Shown piece after piece: positions 3,729-33,833 of a stretch of DNA of 64,000 nt. The position numbers and the translations under genes were made by a program. Within the stretch, counting starts at the first letter, position 1, and each line of letters begins with the position of its first letter. The stretch comes from Tricholomella constricta (taxonomy: Eukaryota; Basidiomycota; Agaricomycetes; Agaricales; Lyophyllaceae): assembly GCA_013368375.1 (NCBI GenBank), contig JAACJP010000022.1:62001-126000 (forward strand), in the 5' to 3' direction. A model generated the notes under the pieces. That model did not search any database. It was not told the DNA's origin and worked only from the letters and a program-made list of their open reading frames with translations.

Positions 3729-4324
3729 TCCAATCTCTGCAACTCAATTACAGTTGATTGTTGATATTCTATCTTGCTTGCCACCTGACCACAGCACGAT
3801 TGTGAACCTAGGACTTGTTCGGCTTATGAGTCACTCTCAGGCTTGCAAGCCAGCTGGCTGAGCGGACTGGGTCGTCTTGTCACTCTTCGGAGCCTGTCCC
3901 AACTTCAAAAAAGCGACCTCAACCTCCAGACTCAGGTGAGTACACAACAAAACCATTTTCTGAGCAGACAATGGTTAAAATTCTGAACAGTAATTTACAA
4001 ATGGTTCTGATGACCTATGGGGTGAACCGCTAACTGCTTATTATCGCGGATGACTCGGACAAGCTGCACAATGGCTCGGTAACCCATGGGCCACGTGCTG
4101 TTAAACAAAGCGCGTTTACGCGTTTCGTCTTGAGACGAAACGCGACGAAACGCGACTTTGTTTGTTGACCTGCGACTGATCATGTGATGAAGCCAGATGG
4201 GGACGAAGGACTTGTCTGGCATCAACCGTAACCATCAAGCAGTCCAACGTTCGAGGAGCTCACCTCGCGTATGTACATTCAATCTCATTTTTTACGAGCT
4301 ATACTACTCATATTCCTGGTACAG
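3729..4324. other. Non-coding stretch between LINE and transposase gene
   Basis: No convincing gene. It holds a long imperfect palindrome at 4103-4163 (listed separately). The bases just before 4325 (ending in ACAG) would suit a 3' splice site, so an upstream non-coding exon of the transposase gene is possible here. Confidence 0.4.
4103..4163. repeat. Imperfect inverted repeat / hairpin upstream of the Plavaka gene
   Basis: The inner arms 4119-4130 and 4133-4144 are perfectly complementary over 12 bp with a 2-bp spacer (CGCGTTTCGTCT). The outer arms 4103-4117 and 4148-4163 also pair except for one extra base. The GCGAC motif here recurs as a short tandem run just past the end of the transposase gene (19590-19610), so this may be a terminal or subterminal signal of that transposon. 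Confidence 0.55.
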
Positions 4325-7300: not shown

Positions 7301-7422
7301 TAACACCGTAATAACTGACATTTTATACAGGGTGAATCTAATCACCGAATCGTGAAAGCCTTCAACAGCCGTACAAACCACAATAATGCGGTACCACAGA
7401 TCACAAGCCAAGATACTCGGAC
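4325..7422 (+). pseudogene. Plavaka-type transposase, N-terminal segment, interrupted by the chromovirus
   Basis: The translation starts at ATG 4325 with a C2H2-like finger (CNQKF...RHISKC). It continues with the block around 5080-5240 (SFLLNRWFW, KTKESRKDLLDNV) and the strong Plavaka signature DATHVAQFGQAKLWPGY near 5700, then QAYEHG, ADYPEK, CPCPRCKICKDD and HELELGVWKSLL. Introns read at 4586-4633, 5828-5877, 6105-6150, 6401-6454, 6622-6670, 6777-6834 and 7273-7330, all GT-AG. In exon 3 the frame carries TGA at 5950-5952, at a place where I recall a conserved Cys, so the copy is probably dead. The gene stops at the target duplication and resumes in phase at 18392. Plavaka elements are basidiomycete cut-and-paste transposons related to KDZ/CACTA; the assignment is from motif recall. 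Confidence 0.82.
7418..7422. repeat. Target-site duplication CGGAC, left copy
   Basis: CGGAC here immediately precedes the left LTR and is repeated at 18392-18396 immediately after the right LTR. Removing the element and one copy restores the transposase reading frame. Confidence 0.93.
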
Positions 7423-7642
7423 TGTAACGGGGTTACAGAATTTGGGACCTTGTTGTTCACACTAGACGTAAGCTTGACAAGTCTGTCGATTGCTACGTAT
7501 AGGTGTACAAGGTTGTTTATACTTAATTAATGTAATGAATTAAATAGGCAACACCAGAAGGTGTTGCCAAACAATAGCGTAATCGTCTCGATAAGATACG
7601 ATTAGATAACCAAGATTAGATAAGATAGTGGGCGTCCTTACA
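7423..7642 (-). repeat. 3' LTR of the chromovirus
   Basis: 220 bp, identical to 18172-18391 except for G at 7634. It contains its own perfect hairpin (7547-7555 with 7560-7568, 9 bp, 4-nt loop), and its outer edge TGTAACGGGGTTACA is itself self-complementary. Confidence 0.95.
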
Positions 7643-7655
7643 TACCCCCCTTTAA
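7643..7655 (-). other. Polypurine tract
   Basis: On the sense (minus) strand TTAAAGGGGGGTA directly abuts the 3' LTR, the expected place and composition for the plus-strand primer of a Ty3/gypsy element. Confidence 0.75.
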
Positions 7656-7998
7656 GATCGCGTGTAGCGATCTTCACCAGGGAGTTGGGCAGAAAAAGAG
7701 AGTAAAAGGAGGGTCTAGGTCCCGGCGACCTAGACCTATCAAATAATGCAAGAATACGTAGGTAAAATACGTATTCTTGACTTAACGAGTAGTGGATGCA
7801 TTAGCGCCACTGCACGGCCTCAAAGTGCCGTGCGGCAAAGAATGGTGGTGAGGACATCCAATGTTGCGTTAATACGCAACCTGCGGATTGCTCCTCGGGA
7901 GTCAGGTGGTCTGCACCTGACAATGGCGGTCGGCCCGGCGGTACGCCCTACGTGTCGAGGTCGGTTCGTTGACGGGGGGATTAAGTTGTCTCCCCGAC
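7656..7998 (-). other. 3' untranslated region of the chromovirus, chain of hairpins
   Basis: No gene. Perfect inverted repeats occur one after another: 7654-7661/7667-7674, 7712-7721/7727-7736, 7751-7760/7768-7777, 7812-7818/7827-7833, 7863-7869/7874-7880 and 7902-7908/7914-7920, followed by a larger nested pair closing near 7960 and 7998. Confidence 0.85.
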
Positions 7999-10953
7999 CT
8001 ATGACTCCATCACTGTGTCGGGGTCGGTGGTGTTGTTGTCCACCAGACCCTGGCTGGTGGTAATCACCGCCAGTGATAAAGGCCCTGTAAGGGCCGACAC
8101 GGGGTCCACTTGGGTTTCGGTAGCTCCAGTTGGAGCTGCCACGACTGTGGAGGGTGTCGCGGGGGCAGGTATAGCTGCCGCCGGGTCCGCCATTTCGACG
8201 TTGATGGACGTCGATCCCGATGAAGCTGGGTGATGCAGGCCTGGGGGGAGATATTCCCCCACCCGAACACGGAGTCCTCGGAAGTGTGGGTCTTCACCCA
8301 CAAACATCCATTCCGAACTCACTAGACAGTCTAGTGATTCGGTCTGGAATTCCACGTGCATCAGTGTTTGGATGCGCGTGATGTCGTCGGTGGTGGGATG
8401 GTACCACCCATCCCACTCAGGGATGGCGGGCGGAACACCCATTTCATCTAGACGACGAACTCGATCGTCGTCAACATTGCGGAACAGGTCCTTATAGGGA
8501 CCTGAGTTAGAGTAGTTATGGTCCAAATAATGTAGACCATAAGTGTAGCTATGGTGTATCCAGCTTACTGGAATACCAATGTTGATAAGGTGTTGCAAGA
8601 CACCTTGTTCAGTGATCCGCACCTCCGGAGGGATCACTTGGATGCGAGGTATGGTAACCTCAGGGCCTTCGATCGGTGTGAAAGGCCGATCTGGGTTGGC
8701 CTCGTTATAGGCAGCCACAGCCTCTGCGTAGAGGTATGGCCGCGCAGTAATGGTCGCGAAAAGTCGCATGAACCATGACTGCATGCTGTGGGTAGTTGGC
8801 GCTAGTACATTCGCCAACAAGTATCCCCAAGTTCCGCGCCTATGTACGCGGAACCGGTAGTCCATGACGATTCCTCCGTATTGGTTCTTTGAACCAATAC
8901 GCCCATGGTGAATCATATGTCGGCACCAGTGCTCGACATCGAGGGCATGGTCGGGGCCTGGCTGAGGCAGGCCAGCGCCTCGTGTAGGCTTGTCCGGCCT
9001 ATATTCGAATGCCCTCCCAGGCCGCCTAATTGGCGCGGCCTGCCAAATGGGTGACCGTGTATCGAACGGTCGGTTGACGCTTCTAAATTCATCCATGGCT
9101 GCTCGAGCCATGGATCGGTCGCGCAAATGGGGCGCTACCGAGAGGGAGACTCGCCGGAACTCCCTAAAGAGCATAAAGGCCTCTGCCCGCTCTTCATCCG
9201 TCACGCCGGGGCGCCGATCGTTGATCAGTGCATACAACTGATCAACTTCACGAGGGTTCATTGGGAACCCGCGTGGTGCGACGGCATATAGCCGTCCCGA
9301 TGGGGGACGAGAATTGTGTCCCGTCCCCAACTCGCTTTCGGACACTCGCGCTGCGGTGCCTAGTGCGTAGGCACGATTCTGGGCGGACGATACATATATC
9401 GTCCGCACTAGCATATCCCAAAAACGGTTGTCCCTCTCGTGGCGGTCGTTGATGAAGACCACCCCGAGCTCGTCAGGGATCCGCCCCGGCATCTCCTTCT
9501 CAGCTTTGCGAGCCATATTCTCGCGATGCTGCTTTTGCCCGGCAGCCTTCTTCTTGCTGACAGGCTTGTCGTCGTCAGACGACTCGCCCCAGTCCGATTC
9601 ATCCATAGCCTCGGCATATGGATCCGATGCCTTCTGTTTGCCTTTGGATGGCGGCGTTGGGGGCTGCACCATCGTACTAGGTGGTGCAGGGGCTGGCGCT
9701 GGCAAAGTATATTTGCCAACAGGTTCCTTCTTCTGAGAACCTCGTTCTGGGTTCCGCACCCGGCTTTCTCCCGGGGGCGGTAACGCTCCGGATAGGTTTT
9801 GCGGCTTTGCTTCCGCTGACGTCGACGATGTCGACGTCGTGCGCTCGATTTCTCGAGCAGGTAAGGGGCGCACTTCGCGCGTCCCTTGATCCTCTCGGCG
9901 CTCTTCCCGTTGAGAACCATAATCAAGTGGGCGTTCGTCACGCCACACTTCCTGGTCGGGGTGGCGGTTGTACCGCCGATTCTCCTGTTCCAGGCGTCGT
10001 TCCGGACGCCTGGGCTCGCTCCTCTCTTGTCGTCGCGGCTCGTATGAGGTGCGTTCTTCTCGACGCACCTCCATTTGCTGCCTTTTTATGGGTTGGGACG
10101 ATGGTCCCTCCCCGCGATCCGGCGATGCTACTGCCGGCCGTTTTCTTGCCAGGCTGAGTTGCTCAGCCATGGCCGCTTCTCTCGCTTTCACGCGTCTCAA
10201 ATCCGCGCAAACTCCATCGTATGCATCAAGCAGCTGGGTTATAACCAGCTGCGCCATTCCATCGTCCAAGAAATCACAAAATTCGCGGTGAATACCCGCG
10301 TCTTCCAATCGATCCAAGAGAGAAGAAAGGAGACCATCGTCTGCGAATGGTCTCCTCGAACTTGACGCAGGCGATACTCTACGATCGTCTGCCATCCTCC
10401 GCGAACTCGACGCCGACGACGCTTTGTCGTCTGCATTCGGTGCAACATGTTGCCGCACCGGTTCGCCGCGCACCACTTGCGCCGGCGGGACATTTGCTTG
10501 CAGACGACTTTGGTCGTCTACCTCCATCTTCTCCGATTCGTTGTACCGCGTATTGTGCGGTACAGGCTGCATGGGCATTTGGGGGTACCACGTCGGTTGC
10601 GGGTACCCCATGAAACCCGCCATTGATGGCATCTGTTGGAATGCCAGCCCTGGCGGGTAAAAACCACCCATAGGTGGTTGTTGCCCTTGGTGGTGCGGTT
10701 GGCTCATATGGCCAACCGTCGGAAATGTTTGTTGCCCCTGATGGGGCGGTTGGCTCATATGGCCAACCGGAGGATATTGGTATAATTGGGGCTGCGAGCC
10801 CATGTAAGTTGGGGGCAGGGGCGCATTTTCCGCGCGCCCCTGCGCTCCCTCCCCACTTGAACTCGGCCCCGGGTTCAAATTTTGCTGGTCGGTGCGGCTG
10901 TCGCCGCCCCGAATCGCGTCGTTGCTGGAGGTTGGTACTTGGCTGGGGTACAT
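7999..10953 (-). CDS. Third chromovirus ORF, 984-aa protein of unknown function
   Basis: It starts at ATG 10953, 128 bp after the pol stop, and runs in the sense of gag-pol. Residues 1-150 are Pro/Gln/Gly-rich and contain two near-identical repeats around VGHMSQP-HQGQQ. A short helical stretch follows near 210-270. Residues 280-400 are extremely Arg/Glu-rich (RREER, PRRPERR patterns), then comes a low-complexity linker. The last 480 residues look globular and are rich in aromatic residues (for example RRGTWGYLLANVL, IPEWDGWYHPT). I see no transmembrane segment, signal peptide or fusion motif, so a retroviral envelope is unlikely. It could be a second capsid or RNA-binding protein; that is inference only. 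It has no obvious own promoter. Confidence 0.8.
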   Translation of the reverse strand: MYPSQVPTSSNDAIRGGDSRTDQQNLNPGPSSSGEGAQGRAENAPLPPTYMGSQPQLYQYPPVGHMSQPPHQGQQTFPTVGHMSQPHHQGQQPPMGGFYPPGLAFQQMPSMAGFMGYPQPTWYPQMPMQPVPHNTRYNESEKMEVDDQSRLQANVPPAQVVRGEPVRQHVAPNADDKASSASSSRRMADDRRVSPASSSRRPFADDGLLSSLLDRLEDAGIHREFCDFLDDGMAQLVITQLLDAYDGVCADLRRVKAREAAMAEQLSLARKRPAVASPDRGEGPSSQPIKRQQMEVRREERTSYEPRRQERSEPRRPERRLEQENRRYNRHPDQEVWRDERPLDYGSQREERREDQGTREVRPLPAREIERTTSTSSTSAEAKPQNLSGALPPPGESRVRNPERGSQKKEPVGKYTLPAPAPAPPSTMVQPPTPPSKGKQKASDPYAEAMDESDWGESSDDDKPVSKKKAAGQKQHRENMARKAEKEMPGRIPDELGVVFINDRHERDNRFWDMLVRTIYVSSAQNRAYALGTAARVSESELGTGHNSRPPSGRLYAVAPRGFPMNPREVDQLYALINDRRPGVTDEERAEAFMLFREFRRVSLSVAPHLRDRSMARAAMDEFRSVNRPFDTRSPIWQAAPIRRPGRAFEYRPDKPTRGAGLPQPGPDHALDVEHWCRHMIHHGRIGSKNQYGGIVMDYRFRVHRRGTWGYLLANVLAPTTHSMQSWFMRLFATITARPYLYAEAVAAYNEANPDRPFTPIEGPEVTIPRIQVIPPEVRITEQGVLQHLINIGIPVSWIHHSYTYGLHYLDHNYSNSGPYKDLFRNVDDDRVRRLDEMGVPPAIPEWDGWYHPTTDDITRIQTLMHVEFQTESLDCLVSSEWMFVGEDPHFRGLRVRVGEYLPPGLHHPASSGSTSINVEMADPAAAIPAPATPSTVVAAPTGATETQVDPVSALTGPLSLAVITTSQGLVDNNTTDPDTVMES

Positions 10954-11081
10954 GTTGGTTTGTGTTGAGAGGGTTGAAAATCGGTTGCGCGTCTAGCGCC
11001 AAACATATTTAACCTTCTGTCATAACTTTTGATGGTTATGTAATTTTCTTGATCGCCGTGGTCACATGACCGCACCACATT

Positions 11082-14000
11082 CTAGGTTCGTCGCGGTAAT
11101 CTCGATGCGCTCTTCACCCCTTGTAGTTCCAAGTAGCGATCCAGTGCCGCTAACTTGTTACAATTGGTGTGCGGTTCCCAGGTGGTGTCTCCCAGGCTCC
11201 ACCTAACCTGATATTCCACAGTATTATTTTGGGTCCATCTATGGCCCAAAATATCTTCTACAAACCATTCGTGATTATCCGGCGCCCCAAAATCGTAGGG
11301 CTCCGGATGAGTTCTATTAGGGAACATTGTATCATTCGTTGCGTAGTATGGGCGCAACATCGATATATGAAATGTTGGATGTATCCGGCGCTCCATGAGT
11401 GCCGTAGGTAATTCCAACGTATAGTTCGACGTGTCTGGCATGGCCTTCAGCACTTTGTAGGGCCCGACGAATTTCGGGCACAATTTACGGGCGCGTCCCT
11501 TGGGGAGGTTCAAGTTCTTGGTGGATAAATACACCAAGTCTCCCCCCTTTATTTCTGGACCAGCGGATCGGCGCCTGTTTGCCTCGCGCGTTTGAAATAC
11601 GCGCGCTTCGATTATAGCGTCATGCGCCTCCGCTATATTCTGCAATGCGCGTTCCGCATACTCTCGAATTCCCTTCGGTATTACGCTGTCTGAGCGTATC
11701 TCTTTCAACATGGACGGCATGTATCCACTATTCAGCTCAAATGGAGCGAACTTGGTAGTAGCCGATACGCTCGCATTTATCGCGAACTCAGCCATGGGTA
11801 TACAATCTACCCAATCCTTTTGGTCATGCCTCACAACGGCACGAAATATCTGGCCAATACTACGATTGGCTCGCTCCGTTTGTCCATCCGTCTGAGGATG
11901 GAAAGATGTCGACATTAGGAGCTTAGCTCCTAATAACTTATGTAGTTCGCGCCACCAGCGTGAAGTAAACTTAGAGTCTCGATCGCTTACGATCGAGCTT
12001 GGCAGGCCATGGAGCCTGACGATCTCCCGTAAGTATACCCATGATAATTGGGCTGCTGTCATCGTCGTATGTATGGGTATCATATGCACCATACTCGTCA
12101 TACGACAAATTACTACCCATAGGTAATTATATCCCTTTGATTCTGGAAATGGACCGATAAAGTCCATTCCGATAGAATCCCAAGGCTTAGTTGGTACTGG
12201 CAGGGAGTGTAGTTTCCCTGACGGTTTTTGATTCGACGTCTTGATCTGCTGGCAGTACTCGCACGTTTTACAAAACGTACGCACGGTCGTGGCTAGTGAT
12301 GGCCACCAATACCATCGTCGAATATATTCAGTAGTCCGTTCGGCACCGAAATGGCCCATAGTTTTATGGGCTTGCTCAATAATTGTGGTGATGAGCTCGG
12401 GTTCTCGCGGTATACATAGAACGCTATCATTTATAGCGTTCGTGGTCCAAATGAGATTGTCTTTCGTGGTGAACGTACGAAAGTCCCTGGGGTTAGCGAG
12501 AATAACTGAAAATAGTTTATCCTTTGGGTATCCAAGGATAACGTCGTGACGGATCTTTTCATCCGTTTTGTCTGGGGGAGGAGAAGCTGTGTCCCTCCCG
12601 AGGACAATATCTCCGACCGTACGTTCCCGTTCGGTTGGACTCATGCTTTTCTGAGGGTGTGACGATGTTCCGGATGCGGTACTTGGTGCCGCAGCCTCCA
12701 TTATCTGAGCCTCGACATCTCGATCCTCCTGGCGTTCTTGAAGACGCTTGCTTCGACGTATTTCTACGTCTTTCATCGCTCGAATCTCAACTACTTTTTC
12801 CACGATTTCATGGTATCGTGGTACTGGTAGATCTTCACCAGTAGGATCGATTCTAGCATCAGCAGCTACGAAGTCGTGGACGTCGTAACGATCTTGATGG
12901 TTATCGCTCTCGAAGTATCGCGATAGACAGTCGGCGACTTTGTTCAGTTCGCCTTTCACATAGGTTATGTCGAAGTTAAATCGCGACATGTATTCCATCC
13001 ATCGACGCTGCCTAGGTGATAAATTCACCTGGGTCTTAAAGAATTCGAGGGCTTTATGGTCGGTAATGATGTGGATTTTATAGCCCACAAGTTTATCCTC
13101 CCACTTAAGTAACGCTTCGAGAATAGCTAAGGTCTCGAGTTCATGCACAGCATAATTCTGCTGTGCATTAGTGAATTTTTTGGACATGAATCCAGCCGGC
13201 TGGGCTTGGATCCATGTAGGTCCTTGTCCATACATCGCACCGACGCCTGACTTGGAGGCGTCACAGATAATCCAAATTGGTTCGCCTGTCTTCGGTTGAA
13301 TCGGCCGAATAATTGGCGTTGTGCAGCATATATGCTTTATCATTTCAAAGCATCGCTGATGAATTGGTCTCCAATAAAATGGCGACCCATTCTCGGTCAT
13401 CGCCATTAGTGGACCAGTGTATGCAGATATATCTGGGAGAAACTGTCCCAGATAGTTAACAAGTCCAACGAATCGTTGGATATCGTTGTAATTCCGTGGT
13501 ATCCTCCAGTCACGGATCCGTGCCAGTTTGTCGGCGTCAGGGTGAATTCCTTGGTCGTCAATAATATGACCAAGGCAATCAACGCGATCCGAATACAATT
13601 CGCATTTCTTCCATTTAAGGTAGAGCGATTGTTCGCGTAATCGTTCGAACACAACTCGCAAGTGGTCTTCATGTTCCTCAATAGAGTTCGAGAATATGAA
13701 TATATCGTCCAAGTATACATGCATGAACTTCCCAATGACGTCCCGAAAGATGGACGTCATTAATCGTTGAAATGTCGCGGGAGCATTACAGTCCCCGATT
13801 TGCATGATGTTACTGATGTATGTTCCCGCTATCGTTGCGAAGGCGGTTTTATGTACATCTTTTTCAAGGATGCGTACTTGTTCATACGCATCCGTTAAGT
13901 CAATTTTGGACCGTATTTTTCCCCTAGCGACATCTTCGCGAATAACTTCCTGGTCTGGCAAGGGCGTAACGTCCTTGATCGTGTTATCGTTACGCTGGCG

Positions 14001-14981
14001 TGCGTCCAAGGGTGTTCTCAGGGAGCCGTCTTTTTTCGGGATACATAGCAGCGGCGCTGCTTGCTTCACCGAACGAGGCTCCCACCATTTAGAATCCGTA
14101 TACCGATTGACCTTCGCGTAGAATTCCTCGCGAAGGGACATTGGGCACCTCGGCGCGTGGTACTGGTACTGTTTCTCATCATCAATGAGAGTAATCTCGT
14201 GATTGACTTCCCGCCAGGGTGGTAGCTGTTGTTTCGTACCACCCACCATATCTTCGAATTCGTCATGCCATTGCTGGCGAAGTCGTGGATAATCTTCCGC
14301 GGTAAGGCCTCCATTGGGTGCCTTACCTTTTCTGTTCACCGTTCTTGCAGCGCGAATGTGCGCTGTGTCTTTATTGCTAGGTTTAACATCAAACCTAGCT
14401 CGTAGTTTTACGAGAGCAAAGTCACTCTCATCCTTCACTGGTAACCGATACAACGGCCGTTTAGCCCGTTGTATATTCACCGGAAAATTCATTTCCGTTG
14501 GCTCCGATACTTCCTCAGGCCGTGGATTTCGGTACGCTTGTCCTCGCGTGCCTACATTTCTTCCTTCGTGAGCCCGCATTGACGCTATTACTGCGTTCCA
14601 TTCTTGCGGCATCCGTGGGTCGAACATCCACTCATATTGTGGATGTGGATTTGGTCTATCCCAAAATGATCGATTACTCGTATTCGTATACGGCTCTGAT
14701 TCCGTATCCTTGTCGGCCCCGCTCGTCTTACGCGCTTCATTATCGCGCTGATGTTCTTCGCATGGCTCGTCAACCTGTGCTCGTTCGTTCGAAGGCTCGT
14801 TTTGTGCCTTCTGCTGTCGTCGTTGGGGTTTTCTCTTCTTCGGAGGTGGCTTATCCCCCTCCTTAAGAGTTTCTTGAAACTCTTCCTCGGATAATAAAAG
14901 TGCTGGATGATCCTTCGGTAGGCTGTTTATCGGCCTACCCTCATTATCAGGATCATCGTCATCTTCTACTGTTACTTTTAG
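11082..14981 (-). CDS. pol: Chromovirus pol: RT, RNase H, integrase, chromodomain
   Basis: In frame with gag, and open without a break from the codon after the gag UGA to the stop at 11082 (1299 codons). The first ATG is only at 14627. The N-terminal 120 codons are charged linker. RT: PKKDGSLR, DLTDAYEQ, CNAPATFQRL, catalytic YLDDIFIF near 13700. RNase H: CDASKSGVG, HELETLAIL, TDHKALEFF. Integrase: a zinc-binding H-H-C-C (TMGHFG...CKTCEYC) and a D,D,E triad in GMDFIGPF, VSDRDSKF and HPQTDGQTERANR. A C-terminal chromodomain (WFVEDILGHRW...VRWSLGDTTWEP) marks it as a chromovirus and suggests chromatin-targeted integration. The box before CNAP reads MQIGD rather than the usual MPFGL, an oddity in the RT fingers/palm. 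Expression most likely needs readthrough of the upstream UGA. Confidence 0.93.
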   Translation of the reverse strand, partial: LKVTVEDDDDPDNEGRPINSLPKDHPALLLSEEEFQETLKEGDKPPPKKRKPQRRQQKAQNEPSNERAQVDEPCEEHQRDNEARKTSGADKDTESEPYTNTSNRSFWDRPNPHPQYEWMFDPRMPQEWNAVIASMRAHEGRNVGTRGQAYRNPRPEEVSEPTEMNFPVNIQRAKRPLYRLPVKDESDFALVKLRARFDVKPSNKDTAHIRAARTVNRKGKAPNGGLTAEDYPRLRQQWHDEFEDMVGGTKQQLPPWREVNHEITLIDDEKQYQYHAPRCPMSLREEFYAKVNRYTDSKWWEPRSVKQAAPLLCIPKKDGSLRTPLDARQRNDNTIKDVTPLPDQEVIREDVARGKIRSKIDLTDAYEQVRILEKDVHKTAFATIAGTYISNIMQIGDCNAPATFQRLMTSIFRDVIGKFMHVYLDDIFIFSNSIEEHEDHLRVVFERLREQSLYLKWKKCELYSDRVDCLGHIIDDQGIHPDADKLARIRDWRIPRNYNDIQRFVGLVNYLGQFLPDISAYTGPLMAMTENGSPFYWRPIHQRCFEMIKHICCTTPIIRPIQPKTGEPIWIICDASKSGVGAMYGQGPTWIQAQPAGFMSKKFTNAQQNYAVHELETLAILEALLKWEDKLVGYKIHIITDHKALEFFKTQVNLSPRQRRWMEYMSRFNFDITYVKGELNKVADCLSRYFESDNHQDRYDVHDFVAADARIDPTGEDLPVPRYHEIVEKVVEIRAMKDVEIRRSKRLQERQEDRDVEAQIMEAAAPSTASGTSSHPQKSMSPTERERTVGDIVLGRDTASPPPDKTDEKIRHDVILGYPKDKLFSVILANPRDFRTFTTKDNLIWTTNAINDSVLCIPREPELITTIIEQAHKTMGHFGAERTTEYIRRWYWWPSLATTVRTFCKTCEYCQQIKTSNQKPSGKLHSLPVPTKPWDSIGMDFIGPFPESKGYNYLWVVICRMTSMVHMIPIHTTMTAAQLSWVYLREIVRLHGLPSSIVSDRDSKFTSRWWRELHKLLGAKLLMSTSFHPQTDGQTERANRSIGQIFRAVVRHDQKDWVDCIPMAEFAINASVSATTKFAPFELNSGYMPSMLKEIRSDSVIPKGIREYAERALQNIAEAHDAIIEARVFQTREANRRRSAGPEIKGGDLVYLSTKNLNLPKGRARKLCPKFVGPYKVLKAMPDTSNYTLELPTALMERRIHPTFHISMLRPYYATNDTMFPNRTHPEPYDFGAPDNHEWFVEDILGHRWTQNNTVEYQVRWSLGDTTWEPHTNCNKLAALDRYLELQGVKSASRLPRRT

Positions 14982-14984
14982 TCA
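14906..14984 (-). promoter_or_regulatory. Probable UGA readthrough signal between gag and pol
   Basis: The gag stop is UGA (14984-14982) followed by CUA, a context known to permit readthrough. Starting 24 nt downstream on the sense strand, an 8-bp stem (14957-14950 with 14913-14906, GATGATCC/GGATCATC) encloses a 7-bp stem (14939-14933 with 14923-14917, GGTAGGC/GCCTACC) with a 9-nt loop. The pol frame is the same as gag. Confidence 0.75.
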
Positions 14985-17900
14985 TTCTCTTCGTTTCTCC
15001 AATGACCGATGGCGTCTAGCTCGGCCATCGGTATCCTCCATTTTTACCTTAGTCGCTGGTATAGCGACTCCATTGACGACCACTTCGTCACGGTTAAAGT
15101 CCAGCACGACGTTATTTGCGCGCATAAACGGCGTGCCTATAATCACGTCGTATCGATCAAAGTTAGCAAGGTCCATGTAAACCTTGCCTTTAAACCCTGG
15201 CAGATCGGCTTCCACCGTCGTACCAAAGTTTACTGTGGCCCGACTTCCTTTAGTCCCGAGCTGGAGGATTAATGGATCCTCCAGCGGAAATACTCGAATA
15301 TCGGCCACTTGAGCGAATGACGGCGTAAGTCCGGTAGTTGTACTCCCGGAATCCCAAAGGGTCCAAGCCTCATGTCCACCTACGTTAATGTAGGTGACAA
15401 GGCACTCCTTGTCCTTTATCAGAACTACGGGACGAGCAATTTTGTCCCTCCCCGTCCGCACTTTAACTTTGCGAACTGGTGGTTTATCATTGCGTTCTTC
15501 TGACGCAATTACTTCTGTCATTGCAAACATACGCTCGGTCTCATCGTCCCGAGCATAGTATTCATTTTCGTAGACCTCCATGTCTACGAACTCATCGCCT
15601 TCGTCTTCATTGTCCGCCTCTGTATCAGGGCGTCCATTGTCTCGTCCGTCCGGGTCCTCAGGAGACGTGTCTTCATCGTCCGCCTCACTTGCCGCGTCAG
15701 GTGCCGCTGTACGTGCGGCCCTTAGGAACGCTCGCTGTTTCTTGGGCTGTTTGCAATCTTTTGCAAAATGCCCTAGTTTTCCACAATTAAAGCACACTTC
15801 CCCCGGAGGATGGTTGTGATGATCGTGGTTTTTAGGTTGATCGTAACGCGGACGATCTCCTGTCTTCATCGCTGGTTTTTCGACGTGGGGCTTTTGCTCT
15901 CCACGTCCAGGTTGATCCTGATACGCTGGCTTGACATATGGCTTTTCATTTACTGCGCCATACACCCGTCGAGGCCTGTTGAAAGTATTGTGTGGAGCGT
16001 TTACTCGCCCTCCATCTGGTTTCCGCATTTGGCTCGGTTGACTTCGCTGAGCGGTTATGGTCCGCTCAAAGTAATCAGCCGTTTTCTGGGTGGCTTGAAG
16101 TGCTAGGCCCACCGCTAGGAACTCTTGGGCTGTATTGATTTCGGGTGATAGCCCGTCATCAAATAATGCCTTCCGCATATCGCGCGGAAGTGTTTTGAGA
16201 AATTTCTCCAGGAACGTCCAATCATCCGTTCTTGCTGCCATGTTCATGGCATGATCCACAAGGTCGTCATACAGACCTTGTATGCCTTTGCTCGCCGAAT
16301 AGGTAACGGCGTTAAAGTCGTTACGAGCATCCTGCATGGTTGAAGGCAGCACGAACCGATCGTACAGCCCTAGTATGACGTCTTCAAACGTCCAGGACTG
16401 CTTTTCGCGGTTCACATGGATAACATGGTGATTGTACCATTTCCGAGCTTCACCATCAAGGAATTCAGATGTTATCAGAACGCGCTCTTGGTCGCGTTCT
16501 GCTCCTCCAAACTGGCTCACGGCTAGCATCACGACAAGGCTGGCTAGCCATTCTTCCAATTCGCCAAACTTGGCGCTTCCACTATAAGTGCCTACGGACT
16601 TTGAGTCCGCACGGCGAGATTTCATACCATCAGGGAGCGATAGGCGTACAGCCAGTCGCTCGTGTATCAGTTGATGCAACCGTTCGTGCATCTTAGTTTT
16701 ATGCTGCTCTCCAGCAGCATATATTCCGTCCGCAATTGATTGACTCCTGCGAATCGGGTCAGGCATTGAGTAGCCTCGACTTTGAAATCGAGGCTGAGCG
16801 TGTGAAGTGGGTTCATTTATACGAACCCGCATGTCTTGACGGCCGTTAGCCGTCGCCGTCGTATTATGTTTTCCGACGGCCCCATTTCCCAGTCCACCAT
16901 CCGAACCTTGAGTTTGCGAGGCCCATTGCCTCGCCATCTCATCTACGGGCATATGTCCTTCGAAGACGACTCCTTGATCATCATAATTCGTGAACTTGCT
17001 CCGTGATAAATCAGCGTTTCTCAAACGCTGATATGCGACTCGGTTGTTCCAATCTTTCGCTAATGGAACACGGCCATCCTTCGCATCCATAGGTACTTGA
17101 ATAGCTGGCGCGCTTTCGTCGCCAGCTGCTTGCGTGGTTGTATACTTACGTTCCGTGGGTGGGTCTAACGTAGACTCACTAACAGGGGCCCATTTGGATC
17201 CCTGTGGTTGCGCAAGATGCTCTTCACGAGTCATTCTTTCGCGCTTCGCTGCCGCAGACCGACGACGATAATCGTCGTCAGATTCTCCTAACTGTCGCGC
17301 TTGATGCAGCGCCGATACTGCCATGGCAGCCTCATCAAGAGGCTGGTTCGATCCGGCAGCCACTGCTTGAGGAGTGAAGAGGTCATCCCAACGACCTTTT
17401 CCTTTGTTGAACGAGGCTTTCTTAGGTACAGGCGTCCCAGCGATCGAGCTGACTGCTGAATTCGAAGTTCCCTTAGGGTACTTCTTCCTGTATTCCGTAA
17501 CTACTACGGACAGCGCTTCCAAGTATCGGTCGGCATATGCTTGTGCGACCATTTCTCCAACGGATTGTGCTCCGGTAGATCGCAGAACGAGCCTATCCGC
17601 TCGTTCCTCCAGTCGCCTTCGCCGATGCTCGCTAACCACATCGGTGGTGTCCCAGAATTGCTTCACTTGAAGCGCAAGCAGTTCCCTTTCGCTGGCCTCT
17701 TCTTCATTAGCCTCGGGGTCGGACAAGTCGTCTTCGTCCGACTCCATCTTGATTATGCTCAGGGTGGACGCCCCGAACGCTCTATTCGACAGACGGCTGT
17801 CTGGCCATCTGCTTCCCGCCGTGGGGCCAGGTCGATGTGACCTGGCCAATTCGTCGGCCAAGCTCCCAGGCACATTGGTGCTTGCTATTGGCCAAAGTTC

Positions 17901-18062
17901 CTCCGATTCTACTCCTAGTGTATTCTGCGCTGGTGAACTTTGTCCACCAGCGACTGATCCGACTTCCACTGGTTGCAGTGGAAGTTGTGATGGAGGATGC
18001 GCTGTGAGCGCATCCTCGAGGACCGGAGTTCGGCTCTTTCCGGATGTGGGAGTTGTTGTCAT
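14982..18062 (-). CDS. gag: Chromovirus gag-protease
   Basis: 1026 aa from ATG 18062; the frame is open upstream into the LTR but only through GTG, so 18062 is the first ATG. The first 450 residues are hydrophilic. The capsid-type gag region (ELEEWLASLV, GEARKWYNHH, FLKTLPRDMRKALF) spans roughly residues 490-640, the CCHC knuckle CFNCGKLGHFAKDC lies near 755, and then an acidic linker. A retroviral-type aspartic protease follows, with active site DSGST near 904 and flap/second-lobe pattern VIIGTPFM near 970. The ORF ends in UGA in frame with pol, so this is the gag-pro product and the extended gag-pro-pol would come from readthrough. Its coding sequence contains many perfect hairpins, for example 17993-18002/18008-18017. 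Confidence 0.92.
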   Translation of the reverse strand: MTTTPTSGKSRTPVLEDALTAHPPSQLPLQPVEVGSVAGGQSSPAQNTLGVESEELWPIASTNVPGSLADELARSHRPGPTAGSRWPDSRLSNRAFGASTLSIIKMESDEDDLSDPEANEEEASERELLALQVKQFWDTTDVVSEHRRRRLEERADRLVLRSTGAQSVGEMVAQAYADRYLEALSVVVTEYRKKYPKGTSNSAVSSIAGTPVPKKASFNKGKGRWDDLFTPQAVAAGSNQPLDEAAMAVSALHQARQLGESDDDYRRRSAAAKRERMTREEHLAQPQGSKWAPVSESTLDPPTERKYTTTQAAGDESAPAIQVPMDAKDGRVPLAKDWNNRVAYQRLRNADLSRSKFTNYDDQGVVFEGHMPVDEMARQWASQTQGSDGGLGNGAVGKHNTTATANGRQDMRVRINEPTSHAQPRFQSRGYSMPDPIRRSQSIADGIYAAGEQHKTKMHERLHQLIHERLAVRLSLPDGMKSRRADSKSVGTYSGSAKFGELEEWLASLVVMLAVSQFGGAERDQERVLITSEFLDGEARKWYNHHVIHVNREKQSWTFEDVILGLYDRFVLPSTMQDARNDFNAVTYSASKGIQGLYDDLVDHAMNMAARTDDWTFLEKFLKTLPRDMRKALFDDGLSPEINTAQEFLAVGLALQATQKTADYFERTITAQRSQPSQMRKPDGGRVNAPHNTFNRPRRVYGAVNEKPYVKPAYQDQPGRGEQKPHVEKPAMKTGDRPRYDQPKNHDHHNHPPGEVCFNCGKLGHFAKDCKQPKKQRAFLRAARTAAPDAASEADDEDTSPEDPDGRDNGRPDTEADNEDEGDEFVDMEVYENEYYARDDETERMFAMTEVIASEERNDKPPVRKVKVRTGRDKIARPVVLIKDKECLVTYINVGGHEAWTLWDSGSTTTGLTPSFAQVADIRVFPLEDPLILQLGTKGSRATVNFGTTVEADLPGFKGKVYMDLANFDRYDVIIGTPFMRANNVVLDFNRDEVVVNGVAIPATKVKMEDTDGRARRHRSLEKRRE

Positions 18063-18171
18063 CGGGTCTCGGTCTCGTTGGTTCTTTTTGATGATGGGTG
18101 TTCTAAATGGAATGTGGGTCTGCGTAACGTCGTGGGTACGCAGCAATAGAAAGCAAGGTAGCTTAAAAAAA
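18063..18171 (-). other. Chromovirus leader between 5' LTR and gag
   Basis: Short leader of 109 bp. Next to the LTR the sense strand reads seven T, then AAGCTACC. I cannot match this with confidence to a tRNA 3' end or to an LTR sequence for self-priming, so the primer-binding site is unassigned. Confidence 0.5.
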
Positions 18172-18391
18172 TGTAACGGGGTTACAGAATTTGGGACCTT
18201 GTTGTTCACACTAGACGTAAGCTTGACAAGTCTGTCGATTGCTACGTATAGGTGTACAAGGTTGTTTATACTTAATTAATGTAATGAATTAAATAGGCAA
18301 CACCAGAAGGTGTTGCCAAACAATAGCGTAATCGTCTCGATAAGATACGATTAGATAACCAAGATTAGATAAGATAGTGGGCATCCTTACA
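18172..18391 (-). repeat. 5' LTR of the chromovirus
   Basis: 220 bp, one mismatch (A at 18383) to the left LTR, followed by the right copy of the target duplication CGGAC at 18392-18396. Confidence 0.95.
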
Positions 18392-19565
18392 CGGACGGCA
18401 GTGCACTTGCGGATGACACATGAACTTGATGCATTGCAGACGTCTGGCAGCCTCGAGCCACTACCTGGTCCAACACCAACTGAAGAGCAGTTAGCAAAGT
18501 CATATTATATTGCTACAGACACCAAGAACAAGGAATACCTTCCAGACTGGGTCCACCAACATCGTGACGATCCCGTGTTCCAGGTATTTGTCTTCTTAGT
18601 GCTCCATTATTCTACACAGCTAATTTCGTCACTTACAGGACTTTATACCACGACTCAAGGCACACCTTTTGGCTCGTCATCAGCAACTTCCGTTCACAGG
18701 AGAGGCTGTTACCATGTTTACTGCAGAGGAATTATCAGGTGTCGTTATTCAGCATAACCGAATTTACTCGCATGCAACGGCATCATTCAACTTCACATCC
18801 TATGATGTCCGCCGTGAGCAAGACACCATCAATGTTAACACTCGGCATCGGGACATCATGCTACCAGCCTTCGAGGAGGATGACAATGACAATCCTATTC
18901 ATAGTCATCCATATTGGTACGCACGGGTCATAGGTATATATCATGCCTTGGTTCATTTCTCTGGTTCACGACGGCCCCAACGGTTGGACTTTCTGTGGGT
19001 TCGGTGGTTTGGACGGGATCCAGAGTGGGAAGGTGGCCCATCGAAACTAAGGCTGGATCGAATCGGGTTTGTTCCTGGAGATGATAACGATGCATTTGGT
19101 TTTGTCGATCCATCAATAGTCATTCGCGCATGTCATCTCATCCCTGCCTTCTCACTGGGCAGGACATTCCAGCTTTTAATTCCTTCAGTTGCTCACGAAG
19201 AAAATGGCGACTGGATCAATTACTATATATCACGGTGTGTATTGGTCTTGTCTGACGATACAATTATTAAGATAAATTTTGTCTTTTACAGATTTGTGGA
19301 TAGAGATATGATGATGCGTTTTTTGGGTCTGGGAATTGGCCATTGTCATCCAGCTGGATTTTTTCGTGAGGATGGGCTGCTCAAGTCCGTACCCTCTGGC
19401 CCATCCTATGTATTCTCGCCCCCATCTGCTCCTGGCATTCAAAAGGCAACATGTGAGGGTGAAGAAGACAACATATCGGAAGAGGAGGAATTATTTGGAG
19501 AACATGCTGATGGGCTTCTGGATGAGGAAGACTGTATGTTTGATGAAGAGGTTTATGAATTCTAG
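18392..19565 (+). pseudogene. Plavaka-type transposase, C-terminal segment
   Basis: The reading frame broken at 7422 resumes here in phase. Introns read at 18584-18638 and 19235-19291. Typical Plavaka C-terminal blocks follow: DFIPRLKAHLLAR, FNFTSYDVRREQD, YWYARVIGIYH, RLDFLWVRWFGR, DAFGFVDPS, RACHLIPAFSLGR, FVDRDMMMRFLGLGIGH. The tail is acidic and ends in a TAG at 19563. No stop is seen in this segment. With 4325-7422 it makes a single spliced gene, now inactivated by the retroelement and by the earlier TGA at 5950. Confidence 0.82.
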
Positions 19566-33300: not shown

Positions 33301-33833
33301 GCGACGTACGAGTTCGAGCATTCAATAGAGTGCGTGGGAATGCACTTGAATTTGGCTGCAAGGATGGCGGAGAAGCACTTGATCTGCCATTCTGGAACGG
33401 TTGTTCGCTTTCGAGCTCGATGATGCGATCCAACAGGATGCTGGAAATGTCCCGTCAGCACGAGCATGGTGAAAGCAAGAATGGCCGGGATATTCAATTG
33501 AATGACATAGGAAAATGACATACTTTCTTTCTTCTCGCATCTTGACGTTACGTTCTCCCGATCGCTGAAGTTCTGTGCTCGTTTCCTTATGTTTCTGACA
33601 TGCATCAATATTTTCATCAGGACTCTCTTTTTCTCGGGGGCGAGAAAAAGAGTAACGGTGTCACTAACCTCTTCGAGCTCAAAAAAGCGCCTTTTTAGCT
33701 TCCTGTACTTTTCATTGATCTCATGGTTGTCCTTAGGCTTCGGTTGAGGAGCCGATGAGGATGGGGGACCCATTGGACCGTCTCTATCGGTTGGCGGGCC
33801 CATGGTAGAGGAGTTTGAGCGACGGCGGCTCAT
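30326..33833 (-). CDS. FYRN/FYRC-domain nuclear protein
   Basis: ATG 33833 begins MSRRRSNSS. The first exons encode a charged coiled-coil-like helix (NEKYRKLKRRFFELEE, then KHKETSTELQRSGERNVKMREE). A long disordered Ser/Pro/His/Ala-rich region with an RKESAALAAAAAAAKAEE helix follows. At the C-terminus FYRN reads LPLNVGIMTVISLGDV...FHTERYIFPVGYEVTR, and after an intron FYRC reads YLSTVDPNIEVVYHCTILDGGDGP, then SGPDFFGLGQ and LIQELPNADRLRDYVWQ (31300-30920). The last exon is Gln/Pro-rich and ends at 30326. FYRN and FYRC fold together and occur in chromatin proteins (trithorax-type, TBRG1). With no PHD or SET here it is closest in layout to TBRG1-like proteins, so a chromatin or transcription role is likely but unproven. 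Confidence 0.85.

Follow-up and report, generated by a model that had tools for sequence, protein, structure and literature searches.

Dense short hairpins written through synonymous codons along a Ty3-type retrotransposon of Tricholomella constricta point to probable selection for RNA folding

The full-length sense RNA of a Ty3-type LTR retrotransposon from the mushroom Tricholomella constricta is probably under selection for dense local folding, a reading to which we give a probability of roughly two in three. Synonymous codons, together with the bases of the non-coding parts, would let this RNA form a row of short, nearly pure Watson-Crick hairpins, with stems mostly of 6-11 bp and A-rich loops of about 3-12 nt, at a predicted density of about 27 per kb. 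Single hairpins would appear and vanish between lineages, with their density preserved. In the literature that we searched, no LTR retrotransposon is described as carrying coded hairpins over its full length.

The element lies in a window of 64,000 nucleotides, the whole stretch of DNA analysed here (contig JAACJP010000022.1, positions 62,001 to 126,000), from a genome of 44 Mb (G000). All DNA that we scored comes from this one genome, in which the window element, representing subfamily A, was compared with one copy each of subfamilies B, C and D. The order of reverse transcriptase (RT), RNase H and integrase in pol, together with the LTRs and a target-site duplication, marks the element as Ty3-type (Metaviridae, chromovirus-like; Table 1). 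The match of pol to SH3_Tf2-1 in Pfam is clear, and the Chromo match at the integrase end (E 0.00026, 21.3 bits) falls below the 25.1-bit cut-off. Since the two LTRs differ at only 1 of 220 positions and the target-site duplication CGGAC flanks the element (7418-7422 and 18392-18396), we regard the insertion as recent. Among the best 120 of 825 pol matches, those with names belong to Phanerochaete, Mycena, Trametes, Agrocybe and Phlebia, and two scans of viral contigs detected no relative. Across the whole window, Rfam gave no match at gathering scores and ARAGORN found no tRNA.

Reading by eye, we found a protease-like DSG motif in gag and, beside the 3' LTR, the sequence AAAGGGGGG, which we take to be the probable polypurine tract. 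UGA CUA is a leaky readthrough context, and a leaky UGA seems to give access to pol. One single in-frame UGA lies between pol and the preceding frame in subfamilies A, B, C and D (14982-14984; L025:3710-3712, L021:3767-3769 and L023:3831-3833), followed by CUA in A, B and D and by CUC in C. In subfamily C, the frame preceding pol is a separate ORF of 372 aa, distinct from the main gag ORF. The third ORF (ORF3) has no match in Pfam; its single homologue among the candidates scored is P0121 of Lyophyllum atratum (62%), and its C-terminal half is the better conserved one. We made no use of the AlphaFold model of that half, whose mean pLDDT was 36.5. In another frame, ORF3 is overlapped by a second open frame of 225 aa (9408-10085, minus strand), which most A copies keep intact; identity is about 60% in B copies, and in many of these the frame contains a TAG. 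We also observed a 51-nt tandem duplication within ORF3 (10675-10776), which doubles a hairpin with the arms CGGTTGGC and GCCAACCG.

Table 1. Positions of the parts of the retrotransposon and of its individual hairpins within the window
Feature	Position	Strand	Description
Ty3-type LTR retrotransposon (subfamily A)	7423-18391	minus	10,969 bases
5' LTR, 220 bp	18172..18391	minus	direct repeat; 9-bp hairpin at 18296-18317 and second hairpin of 7 bp
3' LTR, 220 bp	7423..7642	minus	direct repeat; hairpins as in 5' LTR, the 9-bp one at 7547-7568
gag, from first Met of open frame	14982..18062	minus	ORF; zf-CCHC (zinc knuckle)
gag, whole open frame	14985-18275	minus	30 stems
Single in-frame UGA, then CUA	14982..14984	minus	between gag-protease and pol, which share one frame
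pol	11082..14981	minus	RT, RNase H, integrase, SH3_Tf2-1, weak chromodomain; 30 stems
ORF3	7999..10953	minus	Arg-rich stretches in N-terminal half
ORF3, open frame, 997 codons	8002-10992	minus	36 stems
3' stretch, ORF3 to 3' LTR, 359 nt	7643..8001	minus	6 stems of at least 7 bp, two of at least 10 bp
AAAGGGGGG	7645..7653	minus	adjoins 3' LTR; read by eye
Hairpin	7712..7736		10-bp stem
Hairpin	7749..7779		12-bp stem; longer than first stated
Hairpin	8393..8416		9-bp stem
Hairpin	8877..8901		11-bp stem
Hairpin	9091..9115		10-bp stem
Hairpin	9383..9406		10-bp stem
Hairpin	11914..11934		10-bp inverted repeat, 1-nt centre; longer than first stated
Hairpin	13143..13168		10-bp stem
Hairpin	16700..16721		9-bp stem; longer than first stated
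Hairpin	17010..17032		10-bp stem
Hairpin	17825..17847		9-bp stem
Hairpin	17962..17985		10-bp stem; longer than first stated
Hairpin	17993..18017		11-bp stem; longer than first stated

All 14 hairpins named in the original prediction, which had described the element as saturated with short perfect inverted repeats, are present exactly where it placed them, and five are longer than it stated (Table 1). We counted perfect stems with loops of 3-12 nt, using as controls 40 dinucleotide shuffles or 100 synonymous-codon shuffles, the latter preserving protein and codon counts. The element contains 106 stems of at least 7 bp, against a mean of 5.55 (sd 1.7) in dinucleotide shuffles; the corresponding numbers are 60 against 1.2 for stems of at least 8 bp, 32 against 0.3 for at least 9 bp, and 14 against 0.05 for at least 10 bp. 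The excess in A starts at 5-6 bp (101 against 73 and 66 against 19.5). Synonymous-codon shuffles abolish the stems in all three ORFs: the counts for at least 7 bp are 30 in gag, against 2.05 (maximum 7) after shuffling, 30 in pol, against 2.52 (maximum 6), and 36 in ORF3, against 2.54 (maximum 7). The claim that the pairing is built into coding sequence is thereby confirmed. Hairpins had also been noted outside the ORFs, and we found 6 stems in the 3' stretch and 2 in the LTR. In the rest of the window, stem counts are at chance level both to the left of the element (3 against 3.2 expected) and to the right (26 against 22.8 expected), in agreement with the claim that the density is special to the element. 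Chance or base composition as the source of the hairpins can practically be dismissed: both kinds of shuffle remove the stems, and other elements and other window ORFs lack the excess. Two isolated 12-bp inverted repeats lie outside the element, at 4119-4154 and 33625-33652.

Two details of the original prediction require revision. It gave the spacing of hairpins as 30-65 bp, but the 109 non-overlapping stems of at least 7 bp are on average about 100 nt apart; closer spacing is seen only if shorter predicted hairpins are counted, at 26.7 per kb against 22.1-22.8 in two synonymous shuffles. It gave the loops as 1-15 nt; the excess holds for loops of 3-12 nt, but loops longer than 12 nt are near chance in the element.

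Pooled amino-acid identity between A and C is equal in stem codons (216/438) and outside them (1177/2386), which indicates that the stems were fitted in by synonymous choice. Identity in stems is higher in the first half of pol, gag and ORF3, and lower in the second half of pol (46/71 against 375/531 outside). Most stems lie in coding sequence and pol is seemingly reached through a leaky UGA; hence, the structure might tune translation, through ribosome speed, start or readthrough, rather than serve the whole RNA genome. Selection for unusually strong secondary structure in the coding sequences of cellular genes has reportedly been described. That case resembles ours in that selection acts on mRNA structure through synonymous choice, but here the whole RNA of a mobile element is involved, non-coding parts included. 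Since stems also occupy the 3' stretch and the LTR, and their density is even across gag, pol and ORF3, we consider a role in translation alone very improbable.

Comparison of folding energies with shuffles, a check proposed together with the hairpins, revealed an energy difference of 21.1% for the sense strand of the element. The differences were 18.7 and 19.7% in B (two pieces), 14.5 and 15.3% in C, and 16.8 and 17.4% in D. Five other Ty3 loci gave only -0.3 to 3.8%, and three stretches of the window -1.8 to 1.7%. Stems of at least 7 bp are enriched over synonymous shuffles 9-13-fold in A and B, 4-8-fold in D and 1.6-2.9-fold in C; in nine other Ty3 loci of the genome, the five just mentioned among them, they occur at 0 to 1.4 times the shuffled number. 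These nine loci make up about four families and lie together in another part of the pol tree. Since the energy difference of C is about 15% despite few perfect stems, we conclude that all four subfamilies fold strongly, and that A and B do so by way of perfect hairpins. The high density of hairpins is present in one group of related elements and absent from the nine other Ty3 loci.

Measured against synonymous shuffles, A, B and D show an energy excess per 80 nt of 4.0-7.0 kcal/mol (sense) and 3.5-6.7 kcal/mol (antisense); the corresponding ranges in C are 2.0-4.5 and 1.9-3.8 kcal/mol. We scored 21 further ORFs in this way, nine belonging to the other Ty3 loci and twelve located elsewhere in the window; some of them overlap. 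None has a sense excess above 2.1 kcal/mol per 80 nt, a value reached by a window ORF and not exceeded by the gag piece of C. Stem-loops number about 27-28 per kb in A, B and D and 21-23 in shuffles; at the 95th percentile they hold 17 pairs, and those of shuffles 18-22, so that folding in these subfamilies consists of more stem-loops, not longer ones. For C, the values are 22.5 stem-loops per kb and 21 pairs.

DNA identity between B and A is 91% in gag, 93-95% in pol, 82% in ORF3 and 77% in the 3' stretch, and pol protein identities of C and D are 67-70% and 52-64%. The near identity of A and B in pol, set beside the far greater divergence of their ORF3 and 3' stretch, suggests recombination or faster change at the 3' end of these elements. 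A third ORF follows pol in A, B, C, D and a further relative, E28, and is present in pieces in another, F27; this ORF contains Arg-rich stretches in three subfamilies (A, B and D), and in C its start is RG-rich. In seven unstructured loci, the 5 kb after pol contain no ORF longer than 343 aa. If the trait has a single origin, this association of structure with a third ORF amounts to one event.

We simulated random drift from A in 200 runs. At B's distance, drift leaves 6.5 stems in ORF3 (sd 2.6, maximum 15), as compared with 33 in B; at the distance of E28 and F27, it leaves 5.6 (maximum 12), as compared with 30 and 29. The stem density of ORF3, which has 36 stems in A, is thus kept across 17-19% divergence. 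Drift leaves 11.9 non-overlapping stems (maximum 20) in gag, where B has 30, and 17.1 (maximum 26) in two pieces of pol, where B has 28. L033, a copy with broken frames and 7.6% difference, has 22 stems, within the drift range (15.9, maximum 24). We conclude that stem density is maintained while individual stems turn over between lineages. ORF3 of F27 is itself interrupted. F27 also has an ORF3 insertion (L027, about 1060-1270), which looks tRNA-like (SINE-like) by eye in the alignment.

Divergence between A and B is 0.058 per base in stems and 0.110 in distant inverted repeats. Low stem divergence alone is no proof of constraint, because picking stems for being perfect in one lineage should by itself give about half the background divergence if they are ancestral; hence, we rely on the drift simulation and on a control in which the 3' arm was slid by one to three columns. 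ORF3 of A, B, E28 and F27 yielded 116 two-sided changes in 2995 pair comparisons, which share sequences and are not independent, against 47-75 with slid arms. The outcome is a Watson-Crick pair in 78 of the 116, and in 41 of the 52 in stem interiors. One-sided changes are commoner, at 362 of 2995, so compensation is partial. For a polymorphism test, we used 17 of 20 near copies, leaving out three with at least 70 differences. Variants shared by at least 2 of the 17 occur at 4 of 724 sites in stem cores and at 27 of 5929 elsewhere, so the cores are not depleted of them, and private changes (11 of 724 in cores, 130 of 5929 outside) give no signal of constraint.

One of the meanings first offered for the hairpins was a template-switching or snap-back reverse transcriptase that perfects near-palindromes, which would make them a useless by-product of replication. 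The almost purely Watson-Crick stems are what copying would produce, as are mismatches in A without a G-U bias, and such conversion could also yield two-sided changes. However, not one of the 23 stems with at least three A/B differences has all of them in one arm (a place may enter this count once from each side), which speaks against template switches that overwrite an arm. Among 84 stems that are perfect in A or B but not in the other of the two, 52 have one mispair, often at an end, and changes are nearly balanced between left arms (94) and right arms (96). Overall, stems are not lower in A/C amino-acid identity, the second half of pol excepted; C folds strongly without many perfect stems; and loops are A-rich, not T-rich. 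We therefore set template switching aside as distinctly unlikely, given the absence of overwritten arms, the single mispairs and the equal change of both arms.

Selection might alternatively act on DNA, through hairpins formed by single-stranded cDNA, or cruciforms of the integrated copy, that would be needed, for example, for integration, recombination or chromatin. Compared with chance hairpins, loops are enriched in A in subfamilies A (A.366 against.277; T.215 against.211), B (A.381 against.285; T.218 against.204) and D (A.324 against.277; T.193 against.180). The combined z for sense minus antisense stability gain is -3.1 in A, -2.7 in D, -1.0 in C and -0.3 in B; the extra gain thus lies on the sense strand in A and D, is weak in C and is absent from B. 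Loop composition and the larger sense gain in A and D are strand-specific and argue against DNA as the target, as does the folding of C mostly through imperfect structures, although minus-strand cDNA with T-rich loops would still fit the strand-specific signs. Folding excess is high on both strands, with an antisense energy difference of 19.1% in A, close to the sense value, and this suits a DNA structure. So do Watson-Crick purity and the lack of a clear tolerance of G-U pairs: A/B changes gave 41 G-U and 43 A-C in all (18 and 16 in interiors), and single interior mismatches within A comprise 3 G-U and 12 A-C. ORF3 interiors alone lean to G-U (31 against 16 A-C), and with gag, pol and non-coding parts included the interior counts are 38 and 24 (p 0.10). 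The share of G-U among predicted pairs is 7.0%, against 10.2% in shuffles. Taken together, the G-U counts do not discriminate between RNA and DNA. Where G-C closes the outer end of a stem, its orientation is usually 5'G in A and B, but usually 5'C in D. Overall, we regard selection on DNA as unlikely. The most likely reading is that selection acts on the sense RNA and prefers Watson-Crick pairs; sense RNA rather than DNA as the target is supported but not proven. A folded RNA genome is the best supported of the three meanings originally offered, given synonymous encoding, stems in non-coding parts, their upkeep, two-sided changes and A-rich loops; the strand comparison favours it in A and D, but not in B.

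The closest parallel is GORS. As in GORS, folding energy lies well above that of composition-matched shuffles along the whole coding genome (21.1% in A and 14.5-19.7% in B, C and D), many short stem-loops follow one another and are written through synonymous sites, and stem positions turn over while overall folding is kept. The spread over the whole RNA is evident from the excess in gag, pol and ORF3 and from the stems in the LTR and the 3' stretch. Published energy differences reach 24% in a deltacoronavirus and are 15% in SARS-CoV-2 and 7-9% in HCV (PMC7642675); comparison of our values with these is rough, since we used our own dinucleotide shuffle, 8 shuffles per window and a larger step. 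Unlike the GORS cases, in which the carrier is a positive-strand RNA virus, the carrier here is an LTR retrotransposon, and in A and B much of the structure consists of perfect 7-11-bp Watson-Crick stems with few G-U pairs. GORS pairings are called poorly conserved in the same source (PMC7642675), whereas many stems here are common to relatives and two-sided changes are in excess. As the tested sequence features of GORS are present, and the kind of genome and the shortness and purity of the stems differ, we file the element as a GORS variant; judged by its sequence, it would work like GORS in another kind of genome, with shorter and purer stems. A second parallel comes from yeast Ty1 and Ty3, whose RNA is, according to a chemical probing study, up to 30% stable and highly structured (PMC11381356). 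Those are likewise LTR-retrotransposon RNAs with folded regions, and Ty3 belongs to the same superfamily; unlike that probed structure, the excess here runs from end to end, is encoded in codons and is known by computation alone.

What the folding of the sense RNA might be for can be framed in two ways, which we infer to be about equally likely. In the first, folding would give the host's Argonaute and RNA-dependent RNA polymerase (RdRP) little unpaired sequence to work on, with stems that would stay too short for Dicer. In the second, folding would make a long RNA of about 10.7 kb compact enough to be packaged, perhaps together with the Arg-rich protein of ORF3. The host genome has matches above cut-offs to the Piwi, RdRP and RNase III families; hence, an RNA closed to guide RNAs without forming long duplex could gain an advantage. 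The other Ty3 families in this RNAi-bearing genome lack the structure, which counts against the proposed explanation. A broader possibility is that a clade of mushroom retrotransposons combines genome-long, codon-written hairpins with an Arg-rich ORF3 protein that binds or packages the RNA, the two jointly shielding the element from host silencing; we offer this tentatively, as doubtful. In the pol tree, which also holds elements of Phanerochaete and Trametes, A and D fall in different branches; if the clade-wide reading were true, the trait would therefore be older than the split of the element lineages.

Discussion of genome-wide RNA structure has treated it as a feature of positive-strand RNA viruses, where its purpose is debated, being hard to separate from infection and immunity. 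Our analysis predicts genome-wide folding for an LTR retrotransposon, to an extent comparable with the most structured viruses in PMC7642675. Within one genome, there is a natural comparison between elements with perfect hairpins (A and B), with more imperfect ones (C) and with none (the other Ty3 loci), and it bears on the purpose of such structure in a host with Argonaute, Dicer-like and RdRP genes. Synonymous sites of a mobile element can thus be under strong selection unrelated to protein, which affects age estimates and dN/dS tests.
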